Below are positions 13,372-53,734 of a stretch of DNA of 64,000 nt, in pieces; the stretch's first letter is position 1, and each line of letters opens with the position of its first letter. The notes beneath the pieces are model-generated. The model was not told the origin of the DNA, made no database searches, and saw only the letters and a list, made by a program, of their open reading frames with translations. Where the stretch lies: contig OX485807.1 of NCBI GenBank assembly GCA_950295325.1, positions 30,291,666-30,355,665 on the forward strand. The letters run 5' to 3'. A program made the translations under genes and the position numbers. Origin of the DNA: Polytrichum commune (lineage: Eukaryota > Streptophyta > Polytrichopsida > Polytrichales > Polytrichaceae).

Positions 13372-13981
13372 TGAGGCAGATGGGTCTTGAATGGTTACTT
13401 TTTTCAACCAGCCAACTTCTCGTAAACATGAAACACATGATTAGTACAAGATGGTTAGCACAAAATCTGGGGAGGATTTTGGGCATAATCGGTCAATATC
13501 CTAGTGTTTCCAAGTCTAAGTGGTGACATGTTGACATTTTTCCGTTTTTTTATTGAGTCGGGATATATTATATAAATTATTTTAAAATGATTGGTAAGTT
13601 TTTTAAAGCTTTGAATTTCAACCGATTATTTCTGAAACTGAGTTGATTTGTTTGTAACTAGTGGTCAGCTCTCCCCATTCATTGGGTTAGCAATTTCAAA
13701 ACAAACCCATAGCTACTTTCCTCATAGTTTTTGGAGTTCATGCAAATATCTTAGTCATTATCAAAGTGAAGTTATGATCTCATTAAATGGTCACATAGGT
13801 TCCCCCCAATTATGTTGACTATTACCCTAAAATGCTTATGATGTGTTGAGAATGTAATCCAATTTCTTCTAAACCACATGTATGTTTGGCATCCGTTCTT
13901 GGAGCCACATGAAACCACATGCCACTCAACTAAAGGTGTCCAATTAAGATAAGTAACCTAGTTAGGCACGTCTACCTTAGC
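13372..13981 (+). mobile_element. dispersed repeat family E, interrupted by a family-A MITE
   Basis: The sequence aligns by eye with 45752-46130 and 51241-52065. All three start near AGGTAGATGGGTCT, pass through AGTACAAGATGG and CCAATTATGTTGACTA, and end near AGGCACRTCTACCTTAG. The two ends are inverted copies of each other (AGGTAGATG and CATCTACCTT types), as in a TIR transposon. This copy is split by the family-A element at 13461-13684. No target duplication for family E was resolved. Confidence 0.75.
13461..13684 (-). mobile_element. family-A MITE (hAT-like), perfect 8-bp TSD
   Basis: A 224-bp copy in reverse orientation. The 8-bp direct repeat GGTTAGCA flanks it exactly (13453-13460 and 13685-13692). 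The host family-E sequence resumes on the other side, giving an empty-site reading from sister copies. It has no coding capacity. The 8-bp duplication and the short imperfect TIR point to hAT mobilisation (inference). Confidence 0.9.
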
Positions 13982-14472
13982 TCAACATGTTTAGTTCTAA
14001 CCCTTTTTCCGTCAACTCCCTGGAGGCTTACTAACCCCACCACATGTGCATGTGGACATGGCATTTTGACATCACATTAGCAAACAAGTTAATGTAAGAA
14101 TTTTCATTGGGTGGTGCAAGGAAGTAACATACCTATTTGGAAACAATTGTAAGTCATCCTCTAACGATATAACACTACTTAGATGATGAGCTATGTTCAT
14201 GGGCCCAATAATAGGTTCGAGAATAAAGGCTCCAAATGCCAAAATCACACTACTTCATATTGAATATGAAGTCATGTAGTTGAACACAACTCATCAACTA
14301 AGTAATGTTATGGTCACACCAAATTCAAGATGAATATAGTGGACTGTTTGGATATTTGTGGCCATGGGAACATCATTTTTTTTTGTTGAGTAATGTAAGT
14401 TTCATAGACAACCATGAATATATAAATACGTGGTGGCAGAGATACTATGACGAGAGAGAGAGATTCTTGAAG

Positions 14473-14694
14473 CAATGAGCAGGGAGCACCAACCGCTAGT
14501 TACATATGAACTGGTTGAGTTTGAGAAATAACCAGTTGACATTCTTAAGAAAACTTAACCGATCATTTTAGAGGAACCTATGGAATATACTCCTAATTAG
14601 TAAAGGAAAACCAAAGATCACAACATGTAACCGGTTTGACTTGGAAACACTAGGATTTTGACCGATTTATGCCGAAATATCTCCCACGACACTA
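14473..14694 (+). mobile_element. family-A MITE (hAT-like), 8-bp TSD
   Basis: A 222-bp copy that starts CAATGAGCAGGGAG, contains the family words GAACTGGTTGAGTTTGAG and TAACCGGTTTGACTTGG, and ends TCTCCCACGACACTA. It is flanked by TCTTGAAG (14465-14472) and TCTTGAGG (14695-14702), a 7/8 match. Confidence 0.9.
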
Positions 14695-14702
14695 TCTTGA
14701 GG

Positions 14703-15434
14703 AAATTAGAGCTTATAGTGGATGTGCTTTTAGGTAAGGTAGAAATACCATAACCCGTGAAAATAAGGTGATTTGCATTGAAGATATGGTCTTACAATCA
14801 GGAGATAATTTTCCAAGATAGAGGAGAAGGATTCATGAAGAATGCAAGTTGTTTCAACTTTTTTTGCCCTGTACAAAAAAACCTACAAATTTTCAAAGTG
14901 GAAAGTTGTCAAACCCCTACTCGTTCACTAGATTCTCCCTACACCGAACACGGTAATCTGCATTTCCATACGGAACATCATCTAAATCAGTTAACTCATG
15001 AGTACATTAAACTTGACTCCCATTGACTACACTACGTGTACACGCATTAACTTGGCGACCTCGCCATGTCGATTCCAGAAATGGCACTTCACAATTATGA
15101 CGGCGATCTAGTGCACGGGTAGAGGGTGGTTAACCAGTTTGGGTATTTCTACCTTATGCTATCACTAGGTCATGTCTTGAAGCATCACATCACAACACAA
15201 ATATTGAAGGCCTGTAAGGCTAACTTAGCATAATTTAACAGCGCTAGCTGTGGTCCACACTGCTCCATCAAACATGGATGTGAGCCAAATAAGTCTCTTC
15301 ATGTGAGTGGACCGTCTCTTCAATGTCACCTAGCTAGGCCACCACAACCCCCTCAAACTTATTTAAATGGAGGGGAGTTGTAAATTAATTCCTCCAACGT
15401 AACCGTTAGGTATAAAGTACTCTTTCTCTTAAGT
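14703..15434. other. no gene or clear repeat seen
   Basis: Mixed non-coding sequence with no ORF of note. Confidence 0.4.
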
Positions 15435-15755
15435 TATAAGGCAGCGGGGCACATTCCCGCTCGAATTTCAGATTGGCATGTTCATTGGGGAGTTATTAAG
15501 GGGGAATCAATCTTGGAAGATGTGCAAAATACATTGGAAATTGGACCAATTGGAATAATTAATTTTGGATTAATATTGAATTAGTTATGAATTTTGGAAG
15601 GAGAACTCATAGGGGTACCCAAAACCACTCACCCCAAAAATATACACCATGATTACATAGAAATTTGAGGTTGGAAGCTATAATGTACCTCTTGTTTGGA
15701 TAGGTCTAGTGAGCGGTTTAAGGACCCGAGCGGGAATGTGCCCCGCTACCTTATA
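15435..15755. mobile_element. family-C TIR element
   Basis: 321 bp bounded by near-perfect inverted repeats of about 28 bp, starting TATAAGGYAGCGGGGCACAT at both ends. The interior is non-coding. The direct repeats expected at the flanks are not clear. Confidence 0.85.
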
Positions 15756-15896
15756 TCTACCTACTCAAGCATTTCTGAAGAAAGATACAAGCTGACAAGC
15801 TTTTCTACTTTGAAGAAATCAACGGGACCTTCAAGATGGATGACATCTAACTTACCAACATCTAGTGTTAAAAAGCAACCTAAATGGTTGCGACGG

Positions 15897-16129
15897 TACA
15901 CTAAATATTGTATTTTGTGTCACTTACTATTTGGAGTTGAAAAACGATTTTTCTAAATCGTTAATGATTTTTTTTACCTAGTAAAGATGTTAATGTTTTA
16001 TGATGTCCAAACAACCGATTTGACCTTTGTTGGCAAAAAAATCATGAGGTATAGAGTGAATAGTTATTAGTTATAACATTGCGTATTTTTTAAATAGTAA
16101 GTGGCATTTATACAATGTTTAGTGTTGTA
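15897..16129. mobile_element. family-D MITE (TIR ACACTAAATA)
   Basis: About 233 bp with inverted ends of the form TACACTAAATATTGTAT...GTGTCACTT and its complement AAGTGGCATTTATACAAT. The interior (AAACAACCGATTTGACCTTT) matches a second copy at 26077-26302. Confidence 0.8.
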
Positions 16130-16450
16130 TTTAAGTGATTTAACTTAAGGATTACAAGAAGTGCATTTTGAAAGGTAATATGTATGAAGGGATGTTGTCA
16201 GCCTCAAACTCCCACCCTCATGCGTTGTAGTCCGGGTAGAGGCCCAAGGCTCACATGTGTATGAATTGCTTAACCCAATCCTCCAACCCATTTAACACAC
16301 CTTCCAGGCCAATGTGCACACACCTTTACTCATATAAATGGCATCCACATCTCAGCATTTAGGAATGCTTGTATTACATTTAAATATTAGCTCAAACACA
16401 CATTCTAATCAACCCACTATGGTATGAATGAGGGCCTAACTACCACCCAT
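16130..16450. other. no gene seen
   Basis: Non-coding; nothing beyond the preceding MITE border. Confidence 0.4.
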
Positions 16451-18120: not shown

Positions 18121-18151
18121 CGGGGAGCTTGTGAATGGGGAGATCCCACCA

Positions 18152-18417
18152 CTACACTAAATGGGATATTTAGTGTCTGATTATATTTAGTGTTGCTACC
18201 ATCCTACCCTGCTCAACACTAATTTTTAATTTCTTGATAATTAGTGTTAGACATAAATGTGCTGCTACCTTCCCTACTGCCACCTCCCGTATTATATCTT
18301 TTTTATATCCTTACCACATATTACCATAGTTGATATTTAGTGTTTGGGTTTACATTTAATGTTACTTACTTTCATAGGGTTATTGATATTTAGTGTATGC
18401 GTTTGTATTTAGTGTAG
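18152..18417. mobile_element. MITE with CTACACTAAAT termini, inside family A
   Basis: 266 bp with inverted ends CTACACTAAATGGGATATTT and TTGTATTTAGTGTAG, and internal TTTAGTGT repeats on the plus strand. It splits the family-A copy just after its left terminus. It may be related to family D, which shares ACACTAAAT ends. Confidence 0.75.
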
Positions 18418-18537
18418 TTATAGATGAACTGGTTGAGTTTGAAAAATAATTGGTTCAAATTCAAGACTTGAGGCGAATTCCTAATCACTGTAGAGGAATG
18501 TGTGGAATATACCTTCAATTAATTAATACAAACTGAA

Positions 18538-18640
18538 GAAAAAAAGAAAAAAAAAGAAAAAAAATTACGCCCGCACATTGTACCGGCATGAATGTGAGCC
18601 CATTATCCAAATGCTTAACGTTGTGAACCGTGTTGTAGCA
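18538..18640. mobile_element. 103-bp retroposed segment with 14-bp TSD
   Basis: The direct repeat TAATACAAACTGAA occurs at 18524-18537 and 18641-18654. Between them the plus strand begins with a ~27-bp A/G run and continues into ~76 bp of unique sequence. A 14-bp perfect duplication plus a homopolymer-like end is what LINE-driven retroposition leaves. The A-run is at the left, so the inserted transcript read either minus with a T-rich 3' end, or plus with A-rich sequence at its 5' end. The former seems likelier. Confidence 0.75.
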
Positions 18641-18779
18641 TAATACAAACTGAACATAATCAACATGTCACCGGTCGGGCTTGGAGACACTTGGATCTTG
18701 ACTGATTTCGCCCAAATTCTTCCCATTCACTCTTGAGAGCTTTAAGTCCCATGGCACTTCTGTTTTACACCCGAGTCAA

Positions 18780-19010: not shown

Positions 19011-19049
19011 TTTAAAGGATGTTGGTATATTGGGTCTATTAGCATGCAC

Positions 19050-22000
19050 ATGAGGTGATTGTTTGTGCTACACCGTTTATGATATTTAATGTCACGTACA
19101 CTATTTGTAAAGCCTAAACTAGATGCCTAGAGGTCTCAAAGTGTCACGTCTACTGATTCCTAATGTAACTTGTTAGACTGAAAAATTATTCACATTATGA
19201 AATTTAGCGCAACACATTGAAATACTTGAGATAATATTCTTGCGTCATAATATGCAAAGGAAAGATGTTAGTGAACATAATAATGGCAAGTGTCGTGTGT
19301 TTACATTTGAGTAAGCAAGAGGAAGATGTTCTTGATCATACTAATGTCAAGTGTCGTTTGTGTACACTTTAATCAACTAGTAGACCATCGTGTAACATAA
19401 GCATGCACCTCACAACATTATTAAATATAATCATGCCAAGACATTAGTAAATGCACTTGAATGCCAAGTGTCATGAGATGATACTAATGATGTTGATCAT
19501 TAGTGTAACCTAGGATATGCCTCAAAATAGGGTAAATGACACTATTACACATGTGACACTAAATACCATAAACAATGTAGCAAATTGCATGACTGCCATT
19601 TATATGATCAATGAGACATTTTCATTGAAAGCAAGGATAACACTTATGTTTGCCAACACTACCATGATTTACAAAGTCTGTTGTCCCGCAAGCACCTGCC
19701 TCAATGAAGAGGTGAACTCTATTCAATGATCATAATCCAAGACAACTTTGATTGTCCATTGTTCTTCCCCTACTAGGCTCGTCAAGCCCATTAATATCGA
19801 CACCTTTTGAGATGACCAATCGACCATATAAACCCCCACCCACAATATTGATCGGATTGACCATAGTGGCCAATACTAGCATGGTTCAATAGAGAGTGAA
19901 TTTCATACCACTTGCAAGATGAAGATGAGTATAACCATGTAGCTCAATGTAATAGTAATCTATGTCATATATGTTATCCATTAAACAAACCTATGTAACA
20001 ATTTTTCGTGTTTATACTTAGCAAATTATAAAAAGTCATCGACAACATTGCCAAGATGTAGTTATCGTTGAAATATAATGTAGATGGTCATAGAAAGTAA
20101 GTTAAATATTGAAAGTTATGATGGTCACCAACGGTTTAAAGCTTTAAGTGTGTTCCCTTTTGAATTCCAACCACAGGGAGGTAACTCCCTCTTTAATTAA
20201 TGCATACACCTGCACTCATGATTTATTTATCGGGGGGTTATTTACCTTGCAAAAAGATTATAAGGTATGGTATTTCTCAAAACAAAGGTAAATGCTTGTA
20301 TTTTAATACACCCTATCATTCATTATAAATTTTTGGTGGAATTTGTTTTTCTCGGAGCCCAATTGTTGTCAATTTTTTTTTGAAACTGCATTTTATTTCG
20401 TACACCCCATTTTTTTTTGGTTCTATAAGCAACATTTTTTTTCATGAAGGACATTTCTATTCTTACAACCATGAATTGTGAAGTTCAACTACAATGCTAA
20501 ACTCACATGAACTAAATCAAAACAATAACCTAAGGCAAAGGCATGCAACTGAAGCATTGTCTTGGATTGTGAAATAAAGTCAAACAAAGCACCGAAATTT
20601 TCCCTCCCGGCACGTGGGTAGAGACCATTAACTCCACATTGGAACCATTGGTTCAGTTTCATTCAAGCAAGCCAGAGTGCGAAGTCATTCATCCAAGCAT
20701 TTTCAGTAGAAAATTGTTTTTTTTTCATCCACTAACACAAACCCTACCCTAGACCCACTACCCCTAGTAATTCTTTCCATGTTATTTTACATGTATTGAC
20801 TAGATAAAAAAGGCCATTATATGTGATAGTATTTTACATGTAAATATGTTTCACTATTATAGAAACCCCTATATGATATGTACGTTTTTTTCAAAATTTA
20901 CCTACAATGAATATATTAGACCCTATTTTTTATCGCACGTTGTTTCTACGATTTTCGCCAGTGACCTCCCCATGTTTCCCACGTAAGAGTCTCAAGCACA
21001 CATCATGTGTACCTAAAGAATTTCAAATTTACTACTGTGATAGAGATGCAAGAAGATAGTTGCACAAAGATGCGTGCTATATGTATGAGACATGTATGCT
21101 AGTGACGTAAGCAACCATATTTCAATTACTTATATAAAAAGGGCAATCATATTTGAGTGGTGGGTGTTTAGGTGTAGATCTAAGAACATCCACTAAAAGA
21201 AGTGTGTTCAAAAGACATTGGATGCGTTTGAACTTTGTTAGTCATTTTAGGTTAGGAGTCAACATAATTTGAAGACCTATATGATCATTCAAGAGAAATG
21301 AATCAAATCTTCACTTTGATTATAGATATAAGATATTCATAAGAGCTCCAAAACTTATGAGGATAATGGTTACAACCTTGATATGGGTTTGCTAATTGAT
21401 AGTGATTGTGTGTTTATTGTCATACCATGATCAGGCTAATCGAGGAAAAAACCCATTGAAGACACGTCTACTTTAATGTTTAGTACTTTTGTAGCACGTG
21501 ACACATAAAAGACTTAGAGCACGTTCGTAGAACTTTGGATAGCGTACATGGTGCTCAACCAACACCCCGCCCAAAATCAACACCCTATAAATCTTACGAA
21601 ATAAATACATATCGATTATGAGGATGCCAACCACCTTAAGTAAGCTCATGTGTTGATTTTGGGCCATCTCAAATAAAACTTTGAACCATTGTAACTTTTG
21701 GATATGAAATTCAAAAGATACACGCGTTGGTGCATTGGAATCCTTTATCTTACGTACTAACCACCCTTGTGTTGCTAGTTAGTCGCGATGAAAGTTGTCC
21801 TTCTTCAAAGCTAAAGGTGTGAAGCCCCTTGCATGTGGATGGCTTGGTCTCTAGATCCAATGTACATAATTTGCCAGTAGGTGCATCGCCTCTGGATATG
21901 ATTACCAAGTTGAAGGCCTTCATAATCTTGGGTCGTTGGATAGCCTTTCGTCAATAATTTGTCGTTGCCCATAGAGTTGTAGTTGACGCACCCTAACAAT

Positions 22001-22125: not shown

Positions 22126-22292
22126 CATAACATTATTCAAATCCATAACAATGTTCTGTGGGACTGACAATATTCTACAAAATATTTTTTGATATTTCCC
22201 ACATTTAGACTAAATGTGAGAAATATCAGGAAATATTATGTGGAATCATGTTAGTCCTATAGAATATTGTTATGGATTTGAATAATGTTATG
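22126..22292. mobile_element. foldback MITE, near-complete palindrome
   Basis: 167 bp in which the left ~80 bp (CATAACATTATTCAAATCC...) and right ~80 bp (...GGATTTGAATAATGTTATG) are reverse complements apart from scattered mismatches. The loop is only a few bases. The flanks are AGAG on each side, a possible 4-bp target duplication. A transcript would form one long hairpin. Confidence 0.88.
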
Positions 22293-22385: not shown

Positions 22386-22600
22386 CAATGATCGGGGAAA
22401 ACCATCAGTTAGTTACAAATGAACCGGTTGAGTTTGAAAAATAATTCAAGACTGCACAAAAATACCGATCATTTTAGAGGAATTTATAGAATACACCCCA
22501 ATTTAATAAAGGAAAACCAGAGGATGTGAACATGTAACCGGTTGGACTTGCAAACACTAGGATCTCAACCGGTTATGCCCAAAAATCTCCCTGATCACTA
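22386..22600 (+). mobile_element. family-A MITE
   Basis: 215-bp copy starting CAATGATCGGGG and ending TCTCCCTGATCACTA. It contains GAACCGGTTGAGTTTG, GATCATTTTAGAGGAATTTA and TAACCGGTTGGACTTGC. The flanks CCCCAAAT (22378-22385) and CCCTAGAT (22601-22608) match at 6 of 8 bases. Confidence 0.9.
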
Positions 22601-22608
22601 CCCTAGAT

Positions 22609-24719: not shown

Positions 24720-25098
24720 TGAAGCGGTTGAGTTTGAGAAATAGTGGTTGAGGTTTAGCGGTTCCAAAAAATTATGAAACACAAATGAATTGGTTGAGTT
24801 TGAGAAACAACCGATTGAAGATCAAGACTATGGGAAAATTACCGGGGAGAATTTCGAACAATATCAATAATTCCTAATGTTTCCAAGTCCAACCGGTACA
24901 TGTTGTGATCTTTCAGTTTTTCTTCACTAAATTGAGGTATATTCCATGAATTTCTCCAAAAGTGATGGGTAATTTTCCTGAACCCCTAAACCTCAACTGG
25001 TTATTTCTCAAATGCAATTGGCTCATCTGTGATGGGTAATTTTCATTAAGTCTTTATCTTCAACATGTTATTTCTCAAACTCAATCAGTTATTTCTTA
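24720..25098. mobile_element. rearranged family-A MITE cluster
   Basis: Partial forward pieces (GGTTGAGTTTGAGAAA at about 24728 and 24793) are followed by a reverse-orientation piece (CCAAGTCCAACCGGTACATG and the complement of the middle block). The right part continues beyond the element inserted at 25099-25598. Confidence 0.75.
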
Positions 25099-25598
25099 GG
25101 GCCACTTCACACATGAGACTAAGTGCCCGTGACCATTACACTTCAAGTACTCTCATTGGTGGAAAGGGTGGAGCCGGTCCAAGTTTGCTTCACACTACGC
25201 TTGAGGGACAAACATAGTAAGTGAATGCAAGATGGATGTGAAGTCTACATGGATTCCTACATGGCACCAAATAAATCACTTGGAATATTTATAAAAATCA
25301 CCTCTTGGTGGAGGTATGATATCATAGACCTAACACCAAAACCGGGAGACCATGACACTCCAAATGCTCACAACCATTGATTTATTCTATTTTATCATGT
25401 GTGAGGATTCGCATGAATAGAAATTCATTAAAATATCATTTAATTAAGGGCCCGGTCACATATGTCTTCACATTGCACTTGAAGATCCATGACCATATTA
25501 CATGATTTTGGAGGTGTCTTGGGATAGCCTTTGGACAATTTCTTTGGGGCTCTCATAATTTCATGGTCACGGCTCTTGGTGCGTGTGTGAAGTGGCCC
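25099..25598. mobile_element. PIF/Harbinger-like (Tourist-type) MITE
   Basis: 500 bp with inverted ends GGGCCACTTCACACATGAG and GTGTGTGAAGTGGCCC, flanked by TTA (25096-25098) and TCA (25599-25601), a 3-bp duplication with one change. Removing the element and one triplet restores the family-A phrase TTATTTCTCAAACTCAA, which shows the insertion site. Related copies: 52095-52598 and part of 40103-40450. Confidence 0.85.
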
Positions 25599-26076
25599 TC
25601 AAACTCAATTACTTGGTTGCAATGCAGGATGAGTGGATCTACATCTTGGACAAAGGTCACTTTTCGTTCATGAATGCAGATGCAAATCCAAGAATGATTG
25701 GGCTTGCTCTTACACATGTTCATTTATCTCGGTACTAGATGACTACATTTATGGGGTCTTTGATTAGTGGGTCTAAAGCACCGCCGCCGCCAATCTTTCG
25801 AGTTACTCAATTTAAAATGAACCAAAACCACACAACATTGGTTGTCATTCGCAATATTATGTGTCACAAATAGTCACTATGTATTACATGATAGCGAATA
25901 CTATAACTTCCTCTCCATTTCAAAGTTGTAAGCTGACATACATAATATAATACTTGAAAATGCACATGAAGTGATGAGAGCCATGGATATCACTTCTCCT
26001 GGGATATATATATATAAAGAGTAACATATATGTCGGGAAGTCAACACCGATCCCCAAGGGAAGTCAATACAAGAAC

Positions 26077-26302
26077 TTCACTAAATATAATATGTAGTGT
26101 CACTTCCTGGTTGAAGTTACACCATGTCATATATTTTTACTATTGATATAATGTTTTATCAAGTAAAGTTGTTGATGTTTGTTATAATGTTCAAACAACC
26201 AATTTGATATTTATTGGTTAAATATGAGATACATAGTAAATAGATATAGCATTGCTCAATTCCAAATATTAAGTGACACTATATACCATATTTAGTGTTG
26301 TA
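26077..26302. mobile_element. family-D MITE, second copy
   Basis: The inverted ends TTCACTAAATATAATATG and CATATTTAGTGTTG each continue into TAGTGTCACTT or its complement. The interior AAACAACCAATTTGATATTT parallels the copy at 15897-16129. Confidence 0.8.
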
Positions 26303-28496: not shown

Positions 28497-28688
28497 CTAC
28501 GAACGGGGAGAACCAACAATTAGTTATAGATGAACTGGTTAAGTTTGAGAAATAACCGGTTGATGTTCAAGACTACAAGATAATTACCGATCATTTTAGA
28601 CGAATTTATAGATATCAACACGTAACTGGTTGGATTTGCAAACACTAGGATCTCAACCGATTATGCCCAAAAATCTCCTTGATCACTG
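28497..28688 (+). mobile_element. family-A MITE with internal deletion
   Basis: 192 bp from CTACGAACGGGGAGA to TCTCCTTGATCACTG. It lacks about 30 bp of the middle (no AATTTAATAAAGGAAAACC block). The flanks do not show a readable 8-bp repeat. Confidence 0.85.
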
Positions 28689-29029
28689 CGTGAGACTGGC
28701 AACGTTTTCTAGTCGGCTTCAGAAAAGTTTTTCTAGGTTGCCCAAGAGTTGTAACCTGGACCCTTATCCTATCATGGGACCCCTTCCTTAGAAAGCTCAT
28801 TGGGGGTGCTTTAGCACGTGACACTTGTCACAACCTCCCACTCCCTCGCCTCCTCTTCGGAATTTGCTGCATGTCCCCCACCTCGTCCACCTCAGACTCC
28901 GCAGCCTTAGTTATTCCTTAATTTTTCTTCAACTGCATGATGACTCATGTCCCCATCATCACTTGCCTTTGGAACTCAGCTTCTTTAGACCTTACGTTTA
29001 ATATAAGGCATGTGGGCCTACTGCCGACC

Positions 29030-29479
29030 AGTGCCCTGGAAGTTTTAGGGCATAGTCGGTCAAGATCCTAGTGATTCTAAATACAGCCGGTTCAATGCCG
29101 GTTCAATGATCGGGATGAACCGGGAGTTAGTTACAGATGAACCGGTTGACTTGGAGAAATAACCGGTTGACGTTGGAGACTTCATGAGAATTACCGATCA
29201 TTTTAGAGGAATTTATAGAATATATCCCAATTTGATAAAGGAAAACCGGAGGATGTCAACATGTAACTGGTTGGACTTGCAAACACTGGGATCTCAACTG
29301 ATCACTGAGTCAGTTACACGTTGACATCTTCCGGTTTTTGCTTTTATTCATTTGAGGTGTATTCTTCTATAGGTTCCTCTAAAATGATCGGTAATTCTCC
29401 TGAAGTCTCCAACTTCAACCGGTTATTACTCACACTTAACCGGTTCATCTGTAACTAACCGCCGGTTCTTCCTGGACAT
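29030..29479. mobile_element. family-A copy inserted into another family-A copy
   Basis: A reverse-orientation copy (29041-29092 and 29305-29479) is interrupted by a forward copy (about 29103-29304, start TTCAATGATCGGGATG, end GATCACTGAG). The host sequence resumes within the family's CCGGTTACATGTTGACATC block. Possible target repeats are TGCCGGTT and AGTCAGTT (5/8). Confidence 0.8.
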
Positions 29480-30505
29480 TGTTGTGGACATTTCCAACTT
29501 CACACACAAGATTCTGGCCATTGGATCACATAACAAATTATTTCATTTTACATTGTTATCCCATTTAGTGCATGTGGTACTATTTCCTAAAATACACATC
29601 AATTTTTGTCAACATCTCAAACTTAGTGAGGGCATGAATTATTACTAGGTGATACAAAATTTATGACCACATGCGCATTTATCATACATTTCAAGATAAT
29701 TAGTGTGTGTTTTAAGTTGTTTGTATAGTGCATACATTGTTTTAATGAGCTTGAAGAGGCTTTTTCTTCTTTGTAGTTGGCATCACTCATTCTTGAGGCA
29801 TCTCCTAACATTAAATGAAAAGAGTTTCTGGAAATTTGACACTTTGGGCTCCCAAAACCCTAGATCTTCTAGTGGCATGAATTTCATGGCGTAAAGAAAA
29901 TTTAGTATCACCTTCGCTAATTTTCCACATACACTATTAGCTCACTTTCAATACATGGGATAATCAATGTAGTTAGCAATCACGAATTATGTAAATTGGC
30001 ATTTTCAGTTTCATAGTTGGAGATGAAATGTGGTAGGTTAAAGGATCATGTCAAAATGAAGATTATCTTTTTCTTTAAGTGTTCCATAGGTCCTCCCAAT
30101 TATGTTACCATATCGAACCTAGAAGGGTGTCATTATTTTGAGCACATAGTTCAATGTCACCGTAGTGTATGTCTTTTGGGCATCCATTATTGGTTGCAAG
30201 CCTTATCACATATCACTCTAGTATAGGTTTTTGATTAATCCTTAATTGCCACATGTGCATCCAATGAACCCACTACTTTTGTACCACCCTTAATGGTAAG
30301 GGTAATTTGACCCACCATCACCAACACACTTTATGATTAGGCGTTTGTATGTGAAACCAACTCCATTATGAAGATGTGGAAAGAAAATTCTCTTTGTTTC
30401 AACGAAATTTGAGAATATCTAATGGCTGCAAAGTTTTGAATTCTCAAGTTGGAGTAACTAGTGATTTAAAAAAAAAATTGACACAAGATGGATGAGGCCT
30501 TCAAT
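29480..30505. other. no gene; family-E fragment
   Basis: Around 29995-30240 the sequence shares CCTCCCAATTATGTTACCAT and GGGCATCCATTATTGGTTGC with family E but lacks clear ends. Otherwise featureless. Confidence 0.4.
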
Positions 30506-30510
30506 ACTTT

Positions 30511-31825: not shown

Positions 31826-32345
31826 TACAGGTGAATTCGAGAAATAACCACATGAGAATTAGGGTAAATCTGGAGGAATTGTTGACCTGGGTTACTTACT
31901 TGAAAATTAGTTCGAGAAATAACCGCAAGAGAAATACCCACATGAGAGTTGGGGTAAATCTGGGGGAATTCTTGAGCTGGGTTACTTACTTAAAAATTAG
32001 TTTGAGAAATAACCACATGAGAGTTGGGGTAAATATGGGGGAATTCTTGAGCTCGGTTACTTACTTAAAAATTAGTTCGAGAAATAACCACATGAGAAAT
32101 AACCACATGAGAGTTGGGGTAAATCTCGGGGAATTCGTTGAGCTGGGTTACTTACTTGAGAATGAGTTCGAGAAATCACCACATGAAAAATAACCACATG
32201 AGAATTAGGGTAAATCTGGGGGAATTCTTGAGCTCGGTTACTTACTTGAAAATTAGTTCGAGAAATAACCACATGAGAATTAGGGTAAATCTGGGGGAAT
32301 TCATCAGCTCACTTACTTACTTGCAAATGAGTTCGAGAAATAACG
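31826..32345. repeat. 75-90-bp minisatellite grown from family-A sequence
   Basis: About six units carrying GAGTTCGAGAAATAACCACATGAG, GGGTAAATCTGGGGGAATTC and GGTTACTTACTTGAAAATTA. The right border runs straight into family-A sequence (GAAGTTCATGACTTCAGAA ... CCGATCATTTTAGAGGAA, 32350-32395), and GTTCGAGAAATAACC is the family-A GTTTGAGAAATAACC block. ORFs here are read-through of the repeat. Confidence 0.88.
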
Positions 32346-32529
32346 GGTCTGAAGTTCATGACTTCAGAAACCTACCGATCATTTTAGAGGAACTTCTGAA
32401 GTTAGTGAAAAATGCGATGCAGGATGAGTGGCACATATGCCTGGGTCTGCATCTGCATTCTGGATGGAGGCCACTTTTCATTGCCGGATGTAGATGCTGA
32501 TCCAGGAACGAGTGGGCTTGCTCTTAGCC

Positions 32530-36816: not shown

Positions 36817-36849
<33 letters not shown>

Positions 36850-41800: not shown

Positions 41801-43848
41801 TAAGTCCCCCCATACGAACTATGGGGGGTGTCAGATCCGGGCGGGGGCAGCCTCCTTGGAAATTTTTGAACCCGACCGAAAACTGCTGCCCGCCCCGCCC
41901 AACTTCGAAAAAATTATTGCTCTTGCATTCTTGAAGGCCGCTTGACTACAAATCCCATATTGAGTGCACTTCACCTTCAAGGTCTAAAATCCAATATATA
42001 TGTGCACTTCCCACTAGTAAATAACAATTCATTGGGATTTCATTCCGGAAGTGAAACCATCAATGAAGCATGTAATTAACTTGGAGGTCAAATAAAATTA
42101 CAAAATCCTCATTAACATTGAGGTTATAATTTTTATGACTCACCATTTGAAATTGTCTTTGTCATTCTAAAGTGAAACCTAAATTTAGTGTGATGATTTA
42201 GTATGTATATTTTACAATTAATTTAGTAATGCCATTTACTTTCACAAGTATTCATACACACTCAAATCAATTAATTCCATTAATCAATTTGACTACAAGT
42301 ATTCATACACATTCAAACCAATTAAATTGAGGTCAAATTTTGACCTCAATTTAACCTCAATTTTAATGACCATAGTTGAAGATCTAAAGTTTTTTTTGTT
42401 GACAAATCCTAGCTATATAGATGTTTGCAAGTTAGAGGTGACTACTCACAATTCAAATTTTAAATGTTGAAGTTTTGTTATGTAGGAGATTATAATAGGA
42501 ATGCAATGGTGGTCTTGAGGGGCAACAATTTAGAAATAAATTAGGGTTTTTTTTTTTTTAATCAAACCTCCACTTAAATCATCTCCAAATGGAAAATGTT
42601 ACCCTCATTCAAAAGAGGGGCAATATACCTACTCAAATCAACTCACATAACTTGAAACCATTATTTTCTCATTTTTGGGAAATTTTGCAATTTGAGGTAG
42701 TGGTGCCACAATTGCACACATCTTCCACTTGGATTTACACCCACCAACACATGTCCAACTAGAAATTCCAATGGTGGATGTTTAGGATATGTTGCATTTG
42801 AGTGTCATGCAAATTTTGAGATCAATTGGGAATCATTTGCACATAGGGATCAACAAAACGACATGTTAGGATGTGTTGTCCGCTTGAACATCTACTTGCC
42901 ACTAAACAATGAAGGTGACAAATCCCATGCAAGCATTCATGGAACTGTTCCAATGTAAACTAGTTGAGAGCACACTCCCATGTTTAAATTAATCCAAAAA
43001 TGGCTAACCCTATTGAATCAAAATTACCCATGTGGTAGGACATAGCATACCTGAACATGAACAAGAAGAGTAGTTCAAATAGTCTAGAAACCATCCGAAT
43101 GGGTGTCCAAGGGTTAGAGCAAATTGTTCACGACCAAGTTATGGTCGTATAGGACATTAGGGGTTGATAGTGGCTTACCTAGTGACACTGTCCCACTCAC
43201 TTGTCGATGGTTTAGAGATGAAATTTAGGTGTTCCAAAAGGCAAGTGTTACTTTTAGGCTCATCTACCTTACGTGTACCTCTTAACTCTGGGTCGACAAT
43301 CCACAAAGAAACATCTTGCTCACCAAAAACTTGGACAAAGTGATTAAATACATTATTGTCATTGGCAATGAAAAAACATTAGAGATAACTTGCACAACTT
43401 TTAGCTGCATGCTTAAAGGTAGAAGTGCCTAAATCCAAAATAGTAGTAATTTGGACACCTATATTTTAGTGGTATGTGATTAGGTGTAAATCCTAAGAAT
43501 GAACACCAAAAAGACATGTGCTCAAGAGTTTGGACTATGTACTCCTAAAACCATTCCAGGCTCAATAGTCAACATGATTGGGGGAACCTACATGACCATT
43601 TGATGAGCATGAGGATCTTCACTTTGATAGTGAATAAGATATGCATATGAGCTCAAAAACTATGAGACAAATGGCTATGAGCACAATGTGGATTTGCTTA
43701 TCATCGCACATAAATTGATTGTTTCAATGTCTCACATTATGAGAAGTGGGTGCAGAGAGAAACGTATCCAAACAACACACTTCTACCTTATATTCAATAG
43801 TGCAGAGCTTGCAGTTGCATTAATATGGGTTTTAAAATGCCGTGCCAG
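38869..43848. other. no gene; old repeat fragments
   Basis: A (GGT)n run lies at 38922-38944. Family-E fragments lie near 39820-40010 and (reverse) 43430-43690. A partial PIF/Harbinger-like fragment begins GAGGGCCACTTCAAACATGAG at about 40103. There is a G homopolymer near 40561-40570. No ORF is convincing. Confidence 0.45.
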
Positions 43849-44030
43849 TGCTAAAAGCCATGTATTTTGAGGAAATTAAGGTGCTCTTGCACAAGATCAA
43901 TAGCAAGTTCCTAATCGACCTTACCAAAAAAATCGTTGAACTCCTCCCACAGATAGTTTAACTTCCCAAAGTCTGAGCGCCTAGGATGGATACTCAAGCT
44001 TTAGCCAACCAAGCTGGTATAACCACCCAT
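43849..44030 (-). pseudogene. decayed copy 1 of the BTB gene 3' end
   Basis: Alignment by eye with the last exon at 45068-45250: GCTAAAAGCCATGTATTTTGA, CTCTTGCACAAGATC, GAACTCCTCCCACAGAT, CCAAGCTGGTATAACCA. Substitutions and small indels break the frame. It covers the stop codon and the C-terminal helical part only. Confidence 0.85.
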
Positions 44031-44157
44031 TGAGTGTCCCATTGGGTTTCCAGATAATACTTATTCCATTTGCACCAGTAGACTACATAGGCTGCTCATG
44101 AATGCTATAGTGATTGCGGTCGCTTTGAGGTAAATTTAGCAATGCCATCTATAATTG

Positions 44158-44290
44158 TAGTGCTAGAAGCCATGTATTTTGAGCAGACTCGGCTGCTCCT
44201 GAGCGAGCTCAACACAAGTTCTTTATGACCTCGCGACTAAAATTGTTGGATTCCTCCCGCAGGTTGTGAATTTTATCAATGTCATCAGAC
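44158..44290 (-). pseudogene. decayed copy 2 of the BTB gene 3' end
   Basis: Shares GTGCTAGAAGCCATGTATTT exactly with the functional 3' end (45067 onward), then GCTGCTCCTGAGCGAGCTC, GACCTCGCGA and CTCCCGCAGGTTGTG, with deletions that destroy the frame. Confidence 0.85.
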
Positions 44291-44306
44291 AACAAGTGCT
44301 AGAAGC

Positions 44307-44350
44307 CATCATGTATTTGGAGAATTTGGAGCACCTACTGAGGTGGTGAC
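44307..44350 (-). pseudogene. decayed copy 3 (short) of the BTB gene 3' end
   Basis: Only about 44 bp (GTGCTAGAAGCCATCATGTA and the following GGAG words) remain. Confidence 0.6.
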
Positions 44351-44744
44351 TGATCAAGATTAGGAAATGTCTTGGTGCCTTACAAGATTTGTGTACCAAA
44401 GCCCATATTGGTCATCTTTCTGCCTTCCTAGCACTTGATTTTATGTGGACCTTACCAATAGTGGGAGTATCCGGGTGAACTGGATATATTCATCCAACCA
44501 TGTGGGAGTTTAGGGGCTTGCCCTTGGAGAAAGGTCTGCATCCATTCAAGGTGTTCACCTTCGAAAGGATGTAATAGTCTTCAAGGCCTCTAATTCTTGT
44601 GATGCTTGTCTCATAAATATGTAGACTTAGACCAATTCGAAAATGAAGCAACACTGTACTTCACGCCGGTCGCAACATCAGAGTCGCTTTTCTTTCCTTT
44701 TCCCCTCTTTTCTTTCCACCCATTCTACACCACGAGATCAACCC

Positions 44745-44870
44745 AAGGCCGTTGGCTTGGAGATTCAGCTGCTCTTGTAGAAGCTCAACAACAAGGTCCT
44801 TATGCACTGCAAGAAGAAAATCGTTGAATTTCTCCTATGTGTCATGGGTTGGACCAATGCCATCAAATGA
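44745..44870 (-). pseudogene. decayed copy 4 of the BTB gene 3' end
   Basis: Matches by eye: TTCAGCTGCTCTTGTAGAAG, CTCAACAACAAGGTCCTTAT, GAAGAAAATCGTTGAA. These correspond to 45096-45170 of the intact gene, with frame-breaking changes. Confidence 0.8.
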
Positions 44871-45069
44871 CATAGCCATTTGGTGCCTGAGGTGGCGTTC
44901 CAGGATTGAGGAAGAGGAACACTTCCCTCGAACATAACATAACCATTGTCCCGCAATCTAAGCCTTAAGTTTCCATAATTGAAGGGTTTAGAGGAGATGG
45001 TCGCTCAAATGCTTATGTCCTGTAATCCCCATTGGGCATCCCAGGCCTCGGGGTTCACCTAGTCCAGTG

Positions 45070-48000
45070 CTAGAAGCCATGTATTTTGAGCAAATTCAGT
45101 TGCTCTTGCACAAGCTCGACAACGAGGTCCTTATCGACCTCGCGAAGAAATTCATTGAACTCCTCCCGCAAGTCGTGGATTTTGCCAAACTCAAGCAAGT
45201 AGCGCAAACACTCGCGTTTCAAGCGGCCAAGCTGGTACAACCAGCCGTCATGCAATCTTGCGAGCACATTGCGCACATCAATGTCCTCAAGTAAGCTCTC
45301 TTCACACGCATCCTTCAAGTCCGGGATGTCATATTTGTGAGACGCACGGACGAGGGCCTCCCGGTGCTTTTGAAACTCCTCATGCTCCAAGTTCCCGTAC
45401 AAGTAGCGTAACAACGCACGACATGACTCCAGGGTCATGTCGTTGATGTGCACTGTAGAAGATTGTTTCTCCGTCAAGTCATGGTGGAACATGGAGTTGA
45501 AAACAGGAGAGCGCGAAGCAAGAACAGCCCTGTGGGCTCCTACGCTTCCACTTGATGTGAAAATCGTCACGTCTGTGTGTAGTCCTTCGTCGAGCATTCG
45601 GCTAAGGCACCGTGCAATCCCATTTTGCGATTGCGTTTGAATGTGTTCCTCACTTGACCAGATCGAGTGCGGCTCACCACCCTACAACAACAACAACAAT
45701 GAAATTATTAAAACATAAGGACCACTGAAGGGCCATGCTGCAAAATTGGTAATGAGGTAGATGAGTCTTGTATGGGTACTTTTTCTAACCAGCCCACTTT
45801 TCTTAGGATATGAAACAGCAATTAGTACAAGATGGCTAGCAAATCCAAATGGACGCAGTAGCCACTTTCCTCAACATTTTTGGAGATCGTAGGGATATCT
45901 TATTCACTATCAAAGTGATGACTTTTTTTCTCATTAAATGGTCATATAGGTCTCCCCAATTATGTTGACTATGGAGCCTAAAATGGAGATCATATTTTGC
46001 GCACGCAGTCTGATCTCTTTCAAATAAATGTCTTTTTGGTATCAGTTTTTGGAGCCACACCAAATCGCATACCACTCAAATCTAGGTGTCCGACTAAGAT
46101 AAGTAACCCAATTAGGCACATCTACCTTAGTACAAGGGCCAAAGCAACGCGGTGCAATAAAAGATAAGGACCCATTTGATGTTTTAAGGCCATGCAAGCA
46201 TTTGACAGTAGCAAATAGGTCCTTATCTTTTAAACATCAAATGGGTCCTTAAAATATCATGCAAGCATTTGAAAATTAAGGGTATTATTAATGCATCTTG
46301 AAAACTTTTTCCCAGATGCTTTTCCACGCGCATTGCAGCAAATAGCTATGTCCCAAGAATATCCATCAAATTGCAAAATATCCCTTGAATATACTCTTCA
46401 TAGCCCCTTGGGAATACCCCATTATCTTAGGTGGTTCATATTTTCTACAAGGGGCTTACCTGTTGTGACAAGGGCCACTCTAACGGCCCTTTCGGAATTT
46501 GAGGGTTGAGCACGAGGGCACAAGGAGGAGCGCCCTGACCCGAAAGTTTCAGGAGGGCTGAGCAAACTGCCTCCTACAACGTGAAGAATCGTCCAACAAC
46601 AAATGATGCATTGGGGATGAATTTGAAAAAAAATGTCTTGCTAAAGACAAATATATATAGGAATAATGCCATTACAGGGAAGGCATCTCTAAGGATCTCA
46701 GAAGGAAGCATGGACTACGTCTCAAAATGCAAGTGACCAATGTTTTATGTTTAGTCAGTGTTGATACGTATCCTTCAGAGTTTAAGATCATTTCAGTGCT
46801 GATTGAACAATTAGCTGACGATTCATTAAACATTGATTGATTCAGCTCATGATTCAGCCTATTCGGTCTTCCAACAATAAGATATAGAAAGGAAAGATTA
46901 AACTTCAACTCGAGACTCTGTTTCATAGGCATTGATCAATGTTTTAGTTTGATGTCATTGCATCAATGTGAAGTTGGATGAAGAGTAAGTTGTGCTCGTA
47001 CTGAAAAGTCTTGTATATATGCAAGGAGAATGACAGATGTAATTGTTAGAATTCATGAAGTGGACAGTAAAAGGTCCATGGACTTACTCTTTCAGTTAAC
47101 CTAAGACAAGCAATAGTAGGTGGAGCACACTTACATTCAGTGATGCTACTTTCAAGTCGTGGAATTCAACTTCAAGGAGAAACTTTGCATACATTGTAAA
47201 TTCTACAGACCAAACAAAATCGTCACTGCCTCGGAGCAACTTGTCACTCACTGTCCCACAACCACCACCACCACCACCACCACAACAGCAAAATATATGA
47301 GTATCTCACAAAACCTCGAAACAAATCTGACGCACAAAAAGTTGAGATGCAAATCAGCTGGCAAAATAAGGTTAGATTTCTGGAGGCAAAATTATCATGA
47401 TAAAACAATCATGTATTGAAATAATATCATATACTACCATTTAATTTTGTCTCAAGTGCTTATTTATCATAATTTCATTTATTATGATTTATGTGTAACA
47501 TAATCACGTTTTACACTACTGGGTGTATTTTATATATAAATATAACATGATAATTTCACACTTGGAAGTTTGTGATGTACAAGAGACAGGGGAAAGGTCA
47601 TATACCAGTCACACCTGAGCATGTTAAAGGCTGGCGGTCGTTCCCCCGGACTAGCACGCGAACTGTAAAACTAGCAATGGGAACTTGCTCTTTAGAAGTG
47701 CGACAATTTTCAGGGTAAAGACGCACTGTCAGGGATCCCTTCCTCTCAATGAACAAATGCCTGCATGCACACACAGCCATGCCCGATTAACAACAGAAAC
47801 TCTTGTTAAATACATCCAAGTATCTGTTTCAATTGTCGTCAATAAGTTTGACAAACTTTTTTAACTTAGTGGACCCACAATCAGGTACAGTCTGATCTAT
47901 AGATCATGAACCTCTAAATTCATATATCATCAACACTGATTTCACACTGATTCCACCACATCAACATTGAATCAATTCCTATCAAAACATAGGGTTGCAA

Positions 48001-48528: not shown

Positions 48529-48916
48529 ACACTCTGCCATGCTTGTATGAACAAACATGACAAGAATACCTTTTCCTGAAGTATAGTGGACAAAAACGAC
48601 AGTGTTTCTGACAAACTCAATCTTGTGTGTTTCCAGTCTGCATGTTTTTCAGTGTCTTTGTTGATGAAATCATGATAATTGCACTTAAATCCAATATGGT
48701 AGCCTTGACCCTCCAGGACCAGGCATGTCAATTATGACAATGGCGGCATAATGTACCGAGTAAATATATACTGACCTCTCTTCACTTCAAGTGATGGAAT
48801 GTATTACTCTGTAATCCTGAAATCGCAAAAATTACATACTTCAGTATATTATGGTCAGGAAGAAGGCAATAAGAGACACTGAAGGAACCCTTGAAGTTAA
48901 TGTCCAACATATGGCA

Positions 48917-49250
48917 ATAGGGTTATCCTTTATTTCAACTGGAGTTTTCATTGGGAGTTGGTTGTTTTGCATGCAATACTTTCCATGCTCAGTAAGTTTT
49001 TGGTGCATGCTTGGAGTCGGTGTGGAGGTTTGAACGAAGAACTTTCTATACTGGTGACAAACTCATTTTAGCACCTCTTGGCATGCCAAAATGAGTTTGG
49101 TCCTCCATGAACTGATATAGAAAATTCTTTGTTCAAACCTCCACACCGGCTCCAAGCGTGCACAAAAAACTTACCGAACATGGAAAGTATGGTAAGCAAA
49201 TCAACCAACTCCCAATCAAAACTCTAGTTGAATTAAAGAATAACTCTAAT
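48917..49250. mobile_element. foldback element upstream of the BTB gene
   Basis: Two arms of about 150 bp, roughly 48917-49078 and 49083-49250, are reverse complements with scattered changes (GGAGTTGGTTG...GTGTGGAGGTTTGAAC against GTTCAAACCTCCACAC...CAACCAACTCC). It lies about 390-720 bp upstream of the BTB start codon, in the likely promoter or 5' leader. Confidence 0.88.
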
Positions 49251-49708
49251 GTAGGAAGAAAATTGTAAGCATTTCTCATGGTTACAGTTGACAATGTTTC
49301 TTTGCCATCCTGTTGCACTAATATGTGCAATTAAAGATACTGCTGAGAATTAAAATAAAAATAAAAATCAGAGATTTTCTTTTAAAGAATGAACGTTCAA
49401 CGTATCGTGCAGTCTTTGTCCATAAGGTCCTGTCTGGAAGAACAACCACTAAGATCGGTAAAATTTGTGACCATGATACTGTAGAGAACCTCCACACCGA
49501 CATTTGGTGCAGGGTTTTCACTCTTCCTGCAGAGGTCATGTTCAGTTTGCAGTCAAATATATAGCTGTCTATCCAACTTCAAATATTCTTGAGCTATCAA
49601 GAAAATCCAATTCTTCTACCACACCTAAAAGGATGTGGGCCTTACGTGGGTACTCTTCTAAATTGGACACCTAAATATGATAACCTAATTTTGTAATATA
49701 TTATATGT

Positions 49709-50580: not shown

Positions 50581-51240
50581 ACTGAGTTGGAAGTGCCCAC
50601 GATAGGGCCACATACATACCTTACAACAGCAAAGGCTGAAGTTTGTATCGGAAATGACATAGAGGTCCCATTAAATGTGAAAAACAACACCTGCAGCCAA
50701 AATCCTTTTTCAGCTGGCTATGGCGTCTTCCTACAACATCCTCCTCATCAACACTCACCAAGAGATTTGCTGAAATTCAAGAGAGATAGTGGCAAGGCAA
50801 AAAATTGAAAACAAATAAAATAACACTTGATGCTACATGGCAGAAGATGAGGATTAGAAATTAACCTCGACATGTCCAAACTTCTCAATTTGCAAAGCCA
50901 AGCTGATTGAAAGCTCAAGGCAATTTGCAGCGAGAATTATCGTCAATCCTCATTGCTGTTGCAGCTTGAGACCGAAATCTGGGCTGAGCTTGTCTATATT
51001 CGTCAGCAATTCTTCCAAGTTTCTTGAACCCTTGGGGAGTTGGAATCCAGAACTGAAACTCCTCCATAGCTTAAGTTCTTGCATAAGTTAGCTAAAGGGA
51101 GCAAGATTGGCAGATCCCATTTAGCTTTCTTAGAGAAACTGACAGCATCGGAGAAGGAAGTGTCACCGAGTGCGGGGTTAAGCAAAACCCAAGTGCCCCC
51201 ACCTTTTAAAAATTTGGGTTTGAGGCTGTCAGTTCACCTA
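50581..51240. other. no gene seen
   Basis: Short overlapping ORFs only. Confidence 0.4.
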
Positions 51241-52065
51241 CTTAAGGTAGATGGGTCTCAAATGGTTGCTTTTTCCCAGCAAGCCACTTCTCCTTGGATA
51301 TGAAACATGAAATAAGTACGAGATGGTTTGCATATTTAAATCGAGGCCGTAGCTACCTTTCCTTGTAAATTTTGGAGCTCGTATGAATATTTTAATCATT
51401 ACCAAAGCGAAGATTCTCATGTTTCTTAAATGTTCATAGAGGTCCCCCAATAAAGATTGACTAGTACTTTGAGTTTAGAATAATTATCATATTTTGAATA
51501 TGTAGTCTAATCTCTTTTAAAAAAACATGTCTTTTGATATTGTATTTTATTGGGATTTTTATTAGATTAGTAGGAGCTTGTAGCAGATACTAGAAAAAGA
51601 ATGCCTTTTAAAAAACATGTTAGCGAGATATACAATAAGAAAGCTTTATTCAACAAGTCAACAGTCGTAGCTTAGCTCTGGCACCACAACCACTTTGCAA
51701 TCTAGAAGAGAAAATGTAATGGCAACCCCTCTATCCCACAAAGGAATTTATAGCTTTGGCTCCCATCACCTTCCAATTTGGTAGTAGTCACCTTCCCGAA
51801 ATGTTGCAAACCAACAGCAACCATTTGTCATGGCCCGCCCATAACAACATACAATTTATGCCCCCCCCCCCCCCACCCTCTCCAACGTCCAATCAAAAGA
51901 TTCATTTGCAAATCAAATTCACCGTGCATTTTTGGCCAATGCACAGGAAAATGTACTACTTATTTTAGTGTCCGTTCTTGGAACCACCACACATGACACA
52001 TACTACCACTCAAACATAGTGCATGAATAAGAAAAGTAACCGAATAAGGCATATCTAACTTAAGT
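51241..52065 (+). mobile_element. family-E repeat with internal ~420-bp insertion
   Basis: The left part (51241-51545) and right part (about 51970-52065, GTGTCCGTTCTTGGAACCAC to AACTTAAG) are family E. Between them lies unrelated sequence with a run of C at about 51858-51872. I did not resolve the type of the insert. Confidence 0.7.
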
Positions 52066-52094
52066 TGAGTTAATGGCAAGCTTTGTAGTACTTA

Positions 52095-52598
52095 GGGCCA
52101 CTTTACACATGAGCCAAGAGTCATGACTATGAAATTGTGAGAGCCCAAAAGAAGTGTCCAAAGACCGTCTCAAGACACTTCTAGAATCATGCAGTGTGGT
52201 CACGGGCCCCCAAGTGTAGTTTGAAGTCATATGTGACTAGACCCTCAACCATATGCTATTTCAATTAACTTATATTCATGTGGGGTTCCCACGCATGATA
52301 AAATACAATAAATCAACGGTTGTGAGAATTTAGAATGCCTTGGTCTCCTTATTTTGTGGCACGCCTTTCCCTCCAAAAGGTGCTTTTTGAAAATAGTCCA
52401 AGTGACCATGAAACGTGATCCATTTGATGCCATGTAAGAATTCATGGAGACTTTACATGCATTTTGCATTCACTTACTCCATTGATCCCTCAAGCATAGT
52501 GTGAAGCGAAGCTGGACTGGCTCTGCCGTTTCCACCAATGAGAGTGCTTGAAATGCCATGGTCACGGGCCCTCAGTCCCATGTGTGATGTGTCCAGGT
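52095..52598. mobile_element. diverged PIF/Harbinger-like MITE (relative of 25099-25598)
   Basis: Starts TTA|GGGCCACTTTACACATGAG and shares GTCCAAAGACCGTCTCAAGA-type interior with the 25-kb element. The right end (GTCACGGGCCCTCAGTCCCA) is degraded. Confidence 0.65.
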
Positions 52599-52873
52599 TT
52601 GTGGACCAGAGGCTTGGACCATGGAACATGGATCCCTTGGAATCCACTTTTGGAAGTTATCGTCCACTAAAAACAGGAAAAGCAGAAAGGGGAAAAAGTC
52701 GTTTGTCGGTCTTTTCATTGTAGTGTAAGTTACATAAACTGAAATGGGGTCATCGTGAAACAGGACCAAATGGCCGTCCCTTTTCCGAGAAGTGTGGGCC
52801 CTTACCAATAATGGAATGGAGTATACTAGGGGTGTGGCCCAGCTGATACCTAAAATGGCCTGACATATACTAA

Positions 52874-53406
52874 GGGCCGCTTTACACCTAGAGGCCGGGC
52901 CAATTTCCCTTGAGGCCGATTGCACAAAATTTTAGCCTTTTTTGGGTTGGAGGCCGGCCTCTACTACACAATATAATAAGATTATACCGGGGGCCAATTT
53001 TCCCATATGTAAAGGCCCTCGGGCCAAGAAGCCAAGCTGATTCAAAAAAATTAGCCTAATCCAACGGATGTAGCATAATCTAAGATAGAGCCTTTAGATT
53101 CCACATAATCCAATGGATCTAGTTCACTTTAAAAATTTATACTTTATTTAAGAAGATTTTTTTAGTGGAATATGACATTGGCCTCTAGGCCAAGAATTGG
53201 CCTTCCATTTTGGGTGCACCCAATTCAACGAGCTCGGGCCGTGTCATAACATACATTTTTTAATTTAAAAAATCATACCACCAAATCGGCCCGGCCTCTA
53301 GATGTAAAGGGGTTGGGGCCGATTTGAGCCTTTTGACCAATCACAAATGAGGATTTCAAGCCTCTTACACAACGAATTGGCCCGGCCTCTAAGTGTAAAG
53401 CGGCCC
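52874..53406. mobile_element. PIF/Harbinger-like MITE with TAA TSD
   Basis: 533 bp flanked by TAA (52871-52873 and 53407-53409). The inverted repeats of 32 bp have one mismatch and start GGGCCGCTTTACACYTAGAG. Internal GAGGCCGGGCC repeats make it GC-rich relative to its surroundings. Confidence 0.93.
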
Positions 53407-53457
53407 TAAGTAGATGTGCCTTATACCCCCTCCCCACCTGGGTTTACATAATCTCAC

Positions 53458-53683
53458 CTATGATCGGGGAGAACCAGCAGTTAGTTACAAATGAACTGGT
53501 TGAGTTTGAGAAATAACCAGTTGAAGTTGGAGACTGCAGGAAAATTACCAATCGTTTTAGAGGAATTTATAGAATATACCCCAATTTAATATAGGAAAAT
53601 CAAAGGGTGTCAACATGTAACCGGTTGGATTTAAAATCACTGGGATCTCAACCGATTATGCCCAAAAATCTCCCTGATCACTG
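53458..53683 (+). mobile_element. family-A MITE, perfect TSD
   Basis: 226 bp from CTATGATCGGGGAGA to TCTCCCTGATCACTG. The direct repeat AATCTCAC (53450-53457 and 53684-53691) is perfect; identity extends three more bases (AATCTCACCTA) by chance or as a longer duplication. Confidence 0.92.
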
Positions 53684-53734
53684 AATCTCACCTAAAATGA
53701 TAGGCAGAAGTGGGAGACCCCATACACAGCAGGG

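Follow-up and report, generated by a model that had tools for sequence, protein, structure and literature searches.

What kind of repeat is the short element, here called family A, that recurs across the window (the whole 64,000-nt stretch of DNA analysed), and how would it have moved? Eight near-complete copies of an element of about 226 bp, seven of them outer and one nested, are present, together with fragments. The consensus is 226 bases long, and the copies measure 192–230 bp (n = 8) when nested inserts are set aside. The copies and fragments, in window coordinates, with target site duplications (TSDs) where they can be read, are:

13461–13684, minus strand, A copy within a family B element; TSD GGTTAGCA, 8/8, at 13453–13460 and 13685–13692
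14473–14694, plus strand, A copy; TSD TCTTGAAG/TCTTGAGG, 7/8
18129–18732, plus strand, A copy, 225 bp in all, interrupted by two later insertions; flanks agree at 5/8
22386–22600, plus strand, A copy; TSD CCCCAAAT/CCCTAGAT, 6/8
28497–28688, plus strand, A copy with an internal deletion; flanks 1/8, TSD not convincing
29029–29481, minus strand, outer A copy struck by a second A copy; flanks agree at 5/8
29104–29307, plus strand, nested A copy within 29029–29481; a deletion has shortened its 3′ terminus
53458–53683, plus strand, A copy of the length nearest the consensus; TSD AATCTCAC, 8/8
24781–25094, mixed strands, rearranged A fragments: 24781–24843 plus, then 24842–25094 minus with an internal partial duplication
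32328–32395, plus strand, A fragment found by self-BLAST
61462–61549, minus strand, A fragment retaining a 3′ terminus (CAATATCCGGGGAGA)
63661–63778, minus strand, A fragment found by self-comparison

The copies had been listed in a sequence-only reading of this DNA as a hAT-like MITE family, and they are real and homologous; all match others in self-BLAST, and the boundaries agree within 1–2 bases. The strongest match between separate copies is that of 22388–22599 with 53460–53682 (E = 4.8e-68). The pair placed at 29030–29479 is indeed two copies, although the outer one spans 29029–29481, and the supposed 604-bp copy at 18129–18732 is an A copy but is only 225 bp long after its two insertions are set aside. 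Pairwise identity among the eight aligned copies lies between 0.664 and 0.888 (28 pairs), and this range of 66 to 89 percent indicates that the family is old. Family A is short and non-coding, with TIRs, TSDs, and several copies of similar size, as is characteristic of MITEs. Some fragments (61405–61503 and 61690–61791) sit in duplicated mosaics.

The last k bases before each of the seven outer copies were compared with the first k bases after it, for k = 3 to 14. With boundaries taken from the earlier reading and from the element ends, which builds in a slight fitting that is insufficient to produce a peak at a single length, the 8-bp flanks matched at 40 of 56 bases (pooled identity 0.714), as against 0.143 to 0.327 at all other lengths and 0.270 at 9 bp. 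When the same seven lengths were placed at random, the mean was 14.9 matches, and none of 20 000 trials reached 40. The scores for the individual copies, in window order, are 8/8, 7/8, 5/8, 6/8, 1/8, 5/8, and 8/8; the four duplications proposed previously, at 13461 (8/8), 53458 (8/8), 14473 (7/8), and 22386 (6/8), are exact as scored. The copy at 28497, one of the seven, failed the test at 1/8; a shift of its right boundary by one base gives 5/8 by eye, which was excluded from the count. The flanks of the nested copy, AGCCGGTT and AGTCAGTT, agree at 6/8 with an adjoining 11-bp local duplication set aside, and otherwise at 5/8 by eye. The 8-bp TSD by which the hAT superfamily is recognised is therefore seen in family A over the seven outer copies, with that at 28497 failing.

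Related sites that lack the element give the same length. Copy 13461–13684 sits inside another repeat, family B, and the B pieces on its two sides match 51245–51332 and 51325–51521 in self-BLAST, overlapping by exactly 8 bp at 51325–51332. When the flanks are joined without the copy and one duplicate, they align without a gap at the junction to 45745–46130 and 51245–51535, B relatives that carry the 8-bp site once; these unoccupied sites are relatives at 70–81 percent identity, at loci different from 13461. Thus, the boundaries of A and the 8-bp length are fixed independently of the flank count.

The order of some insertions can also be read. The outer copy at 29029–29481 is a minus-strand element interrupted by the plus-strand copy 29104–29307, and the sequences before and after the insertion show that the later insertion hit a AACCGGTT-like word of the older copy itself. 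Together with the copy hosted by family B, this nesting indicates that A inserted on at least two occasions, and that at one site B predates A. Copy 18129–18732 was later struck by a 260-bp element with ends CACTAAAT/ATTTAGTG, lying between TA dinucleotides, and holds a second insertion between 13-bp repeats.

The ends of hAT elements are short TIRs beginning C/T-A-N-N-G, that is, with A at position 2 and G at position 5. Of the 15 A ends counted, the shortened 3′ end of the nested copy being left out, 12 have A at position 2 and 14 have G at position 5, so that the hAT signature is found in this family. Termini of the CARTGATCGGGGAGA type, to which all copies had been assigned, are present, but they are only one among several end types: GAATGGGGAGA ends occur once in copy 13461 and twice in copy 18129, and copy 29029–29481 ends in GTCCAGGAAGA/GCCCTGGAAGT. 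The TIR columns keep 178 of 225 cells, a conservation below that of the rest of the element. Excerpts of PMC3517528 give 8-bp TSDs and TIRs of 5–27 bp for hAT elements. The flank test, the B sites, and the A2/G5 ends support the earlier description of a non-autonomous family with 8-bp TSDs and hAT-like termini, and hAT is the best-supported class for family A, as an assignment from the 8-bp TSD, the short TIRs, and A2/G5 rather than a proof.

The window has 115 stop-to-stop ORFs with a length of 75 aa or above; these matched 21 families (E ≤ 0.05), none of them a hAT domain, at a length cut-off that a transposase broken into shorter pieces could escape. The clear domain families among these ORFs are BTB, RVT_2, and gag_pre-integrs, and the only transposase-type domains are retrotransposon pieces. 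With a plant-like BTB protein and Copia pieces, the window resembles land-plant DNA. A longer, possibly autonomous element with A ends was sought by an end-profile scan of both strands, which returned only A copies and fragment 61462. The scan gave 13 sites at 14.9 or above, compared with a best score of 13.2 in five Markov sequences, with a profile that was built from the 15 known ends and is circular for those ends; the true ends at 14694 and 29029 score 13.1 and 12.5, inside the null range, so decayed ends could be missed.

Assignment to an Ac or Buster subgroup from the TSD motif was dropped, as the sites are too few. The Buster consensus nnnTAnnn fits 2 of 8 sites by eye (GGTTAGCA and CCCTAGAT), in a set that is small and partly decayed; the flanks of 29029–29481 fit nTnnnnAn by eye, and the remaining sites match neither motif. 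Co-variation of the two ends of each copy, which would indicate homogenised ends, was weak and was not used (58 of 77 letters where permutation averaged 52.0, with 96 of 5040 permutations as high, for seven copies).

Could family A belong to another superfamily with 8-bp TSDs, such as P, Merlin, or MULE (the last with a TSD of 8 bp in place of 9 bp)? P and Merlin transposition likewise leaves TSDs of about 8 bp, and P element ends begin with CA; the 115 ORFs yielded no transposase. On the other hand, the sharpness of the 8-bp length, which falls away at 9 bp, and the frequency of A2 and G5 favor hAT, as would, if the host is a plant, the prevalence of hAT MITEs in nearly all plants studied, as excerpts of PMC12550479 have it. 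We consider another superfamily unlikely. It is far less credible still that the copies are segmental duplications that share their ends by chance and are not mobile DNA. The fragments in duplicated mosaics would suit such an origin, but the TSDs, the precise nested insertion, and the unoccupied related sites contradict it, and we give it almost no weight.

What, then, could be the function of AACCGGTT, the recurring word of the A interior? It starts at positions 37, 58, and 162 of the 226-base consensus. The enrichment noted in the sequence-only reading is real: exact AACCGGTT occurs 10 times in the 2602 bp of A DNA (13 intervals chosen by the analyst) and once in the other 61 398 bp, and with up to one mismatch 26 times in A DNA and 11 times elsewhere in the window. 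That reading called such words unusual for a MITE, which is apt as a description, but repeated subterminal transposase-binding words are normal for hAT elements, as parts of PMC3260210 and PMC3143072 describe. Readable words start 37 from the 5′ end in 7 of 8 copies and 58 from it likewise in 7 of 8. On the 3′ side, six of the eight copies carry a word within two mismatches at 57–59 from the end; shortening of the 3′ terminus has shifted the register of another copy, whose only match near there has two mismatches. Five of the eight also carry a weaker, degenerate word at 27–28 from the 3′ terminus, which in copy 22386 is a perfect AACCGGTT.

The differences from the consensus fall unevenly. 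At CpG positions there are 24 transitions and 1 transversion in 107 cells, at CHG positions 19 and 5 in 136 cells, at other C/G positions 51 and 24 in 427 cells, and at A/T positions 72 and 69 in 1062 cells. The CpG changes, nearly all transitions, are the mark expected of decay through cytosine methylation, and AACTGGTT and AACCAGTT are accordingly read as worn AACCGGTT. The six non-CG letters of the three consensus words hold in 130 of 140 cells, compared with 1302 of 1546 elsewhere in the element.

The observed copies, ends, TSD length, unoccupied related site, nesting, and CpG-type decay could have arisen as follows. A hAT transposase supplied in trans would excise A by its ends of about 15 bp and duplicate 8 bp of target on reinsertion. 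Its subterminal binding sites would most likely be the AACCGGTT words, which stand 37 and 58 bp in from the 5′ terminus and 58 bp and, in degenerate form, 27 bp in from the 3′ terminus, and each palindrome could seat two BED zinc fingers. According to excerpts of PMC3260210 and PMC3143072, Ac, Tag1, and Herves have transposases that bind to short repeats in the subterminal regions. In Hermes, binding of a quasi-palindromic pair by two BED domains is cooperative, spacing is crucial, and a single-base shift in the repeat pair harms cleavage, as described in part of PMC10368747. The AACCGGTT palindrome equidistant from both ends of A would fit Hermes-like BED binding, by analogy, with roughly equal chances either way. 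Taken together, we propose, with a probability of about 0.8, that family A is an old non-autonomous hAT-type MITE, mobilised in trans, with AACCGGTT as putative subterminal sites.

Several known systems resemble it in part. Maize Ds1/Ds-like elements (Ac/Ds, hAT) are likewise short and non-coding, with an 8-bp TSD, short TIRs, and a subterminal word in a few copies, and excerpts of PMC3260210 report that Ac transposase binds the Ds subterminal word AAACGG; the ends differ (CARTGATCGGGGAGA in A, C/TAGGGATGAAA in Ds), and the A word is the palindrome AACCGGTT. The Drosophila Mar MITE (hAT, Buster group) also has 8-bp TSDs, with TIRs of about 11 bp beginning CAG (PMC3517528, in the excerpts cited), but it is an insect element of 610 bp, and its TSD consensus nnnTAnnn fits only two A sites by eye. 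The Hermes left end has quasi-palindromic subterminal words, the pair bound by two BED domains (PMC10368747, in part), whereas its word is AAGT/AAGC and its ends are asymmetric, while A has palindromes 58 bp from both ends. Tag1 of Arabidopsis (hAT) has short A-C-rich subterminal words, AAACCC/TGACCC (PMC3143072, in part), which are non-palindromic and of different sequence.

Consensus ACCG cores lie at 38, 59, 90, 142, 163, and 194, with spacings of 21, 31, 52, 21, and 31, and fit a period of 10.4 bp with R = 0.998, a fit that none of 20 000 random six-position sets equalled, in a pattern recognised post hoc from eight copies. The interior is also a diverged direct repeat at an offset of 104 (42 of 70 identical, a score that none of 400 shuffles reached), and the recurrence of the 21 and 31 spacings is due to this repeat. 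If it is a true duplication, only three core positions are independent and the phasing is not extreme; 476 of 20 000 random position triples are as well phased. Furthermore, AAAT, one of eight tetramers found four or more times, is phased almost as well (R = 0.994). Both the phasing and the repeat persist in three alignment modes, and the offset of 104 is best in all three modes and in 8 of 8 leave-one-out consensuses. In those consensuses, the core at 38 is lost in 4 of 8 and that at 142 in 1 of 8, and 4 of 8 gain a core at 20 that is out of phase. Taken singly, only three of the eight copies have the direct repeat as their best register: the nested copy, the outer copy at 29029 (offset 109), and the copy at 28497, whose offset of 70 is ascribed to its internal deletion. 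It ranks second in copy 53458 and is outside the top two registers in the other four.

These data bear on whether the AACCGGTT words are, instead of transposase sites, a by-product of an internal duplication of about 70–104 bp in the founder, or else host transcription-factor sites that were carried along. The offset-104 repeat speaks for a duplication, and it extends outside the ACCG words (23 of 46 identical, binomial 8e-4), whereas the better conservation of the non-CG letters in the three full words and the nearly constant distances from the ends, where a word is readable, speak against a mere by-product. We regard this origin as possible, at somewhat longer odds than even. A duplication is compatible with binding sites, so it would count only against the idea that spacing was selected independently. 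A bolder proposal, that the six ACCG cores are a helically phased palindromic array for two BED fingers in a minimal hAT substrate, derived from a duplicated 104-bp module of ten turns and with every site turned to the same side of the helix, towards a ring-shaped transposase, is speculative and probably incorrect as a whole.

A fold-back MITE with long self-complementary arms was also considered and rejected, the best inverted match in the consensus being equalled by 173 of 400 shuffles. On its own, copy 53458–53683 gives a fold, made by its short TIRs and palindromic words, that outdoes most shuffles (z = −2.5, 2 of 200).

A literature search with the A end words gave, among the matches listed, none on transposons by title, and one with AACCGGTT and transposon gave no transposon family paper by title; one degenerate 26-base word of the family had no match in viral_contigs. 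As far as text searches tell, and literature text does not reach far, A is new as a family. It is ordinary in kind, one more among the common hAT MITEs, and the phased palindromic array is the one feature worth taking further. Family A could serve as a test case: the Hermes work gives the phasing of subterminal repeats as crucial, and in this 226-bp element the palindromic words seem to lie on one face of the helix and 58 bp from either end. If copies across the genome confirm this, a non-coding relic could serve to predict the binding word of the cognate transposase and the geometry of its ring.

The copy of A, the ~226-bp hAT-type MITE family, that lies at 18129-18732 is split by two later insertions. 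One, of 260 bp (18155-18414), has TA at either flank and the termini CACTAAAT/ATTTAGTG, and its interior is rich in ATTTAGTGT words. The other, of about 100 bp (18525-18654), carries 13-bp direct repeats, AATACAAACTGAA, on both sides, and its left end is marked by an A-rich stretch.

A further repeat family, B, is about 390 bp long, with imperfect 33-nt ends that are 73% complementary (45749-45781 vs 46101-46133).

Copies of B and inverted-repeat (fold-back) elements, the latter found by self-BLAST
13364-13980, B, surrounding an A copy
21149-21396, B
22126-22292, fold-back element, 167 bp
26079-26302, fold-back element, ~220 bp
30051-30228, B
43451-43805, B
45738-46130, B
48915-49251, fold-back element, 337 bp
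51245-52062, B, with a ~430-bp insertion inside

A BTB/POZ ORF (45073-45681, minus strand; Pfam E 7e-23), whose C-terminal end recurs in partial, decayed form at 43845-44028, 44159-44274 and 44759-44835, is bracketed along with these repeats by two inverted B copies (whole locus, 43451-46130).

Decayed pieces of a Copia-type retrotransposon, at 8800-11716, gave a gag_pre-integrase match (E 1e-8) and a weak integrase core; an RVT_2 match (E 4e-12) was seen in one of the 115 ORFs screened.

In a duplicated mosaic (61405-61503, 61690-61791 and 63785-63946), the 3' end of A is fused directly with a different repeat having TTGATCACCCCCTC-type ends. This junction occurs twice and is adjoined by a palindromic copy of the TTGATCACCCCCTC-ended repeat. 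Words resembling TTAGGGCCACTTYACAC, the edge sequence of an inverted, 75% identical repeat pair of about 500 bp (25100-25599 vs 52094-52594), also lie near 61799 and 63640.
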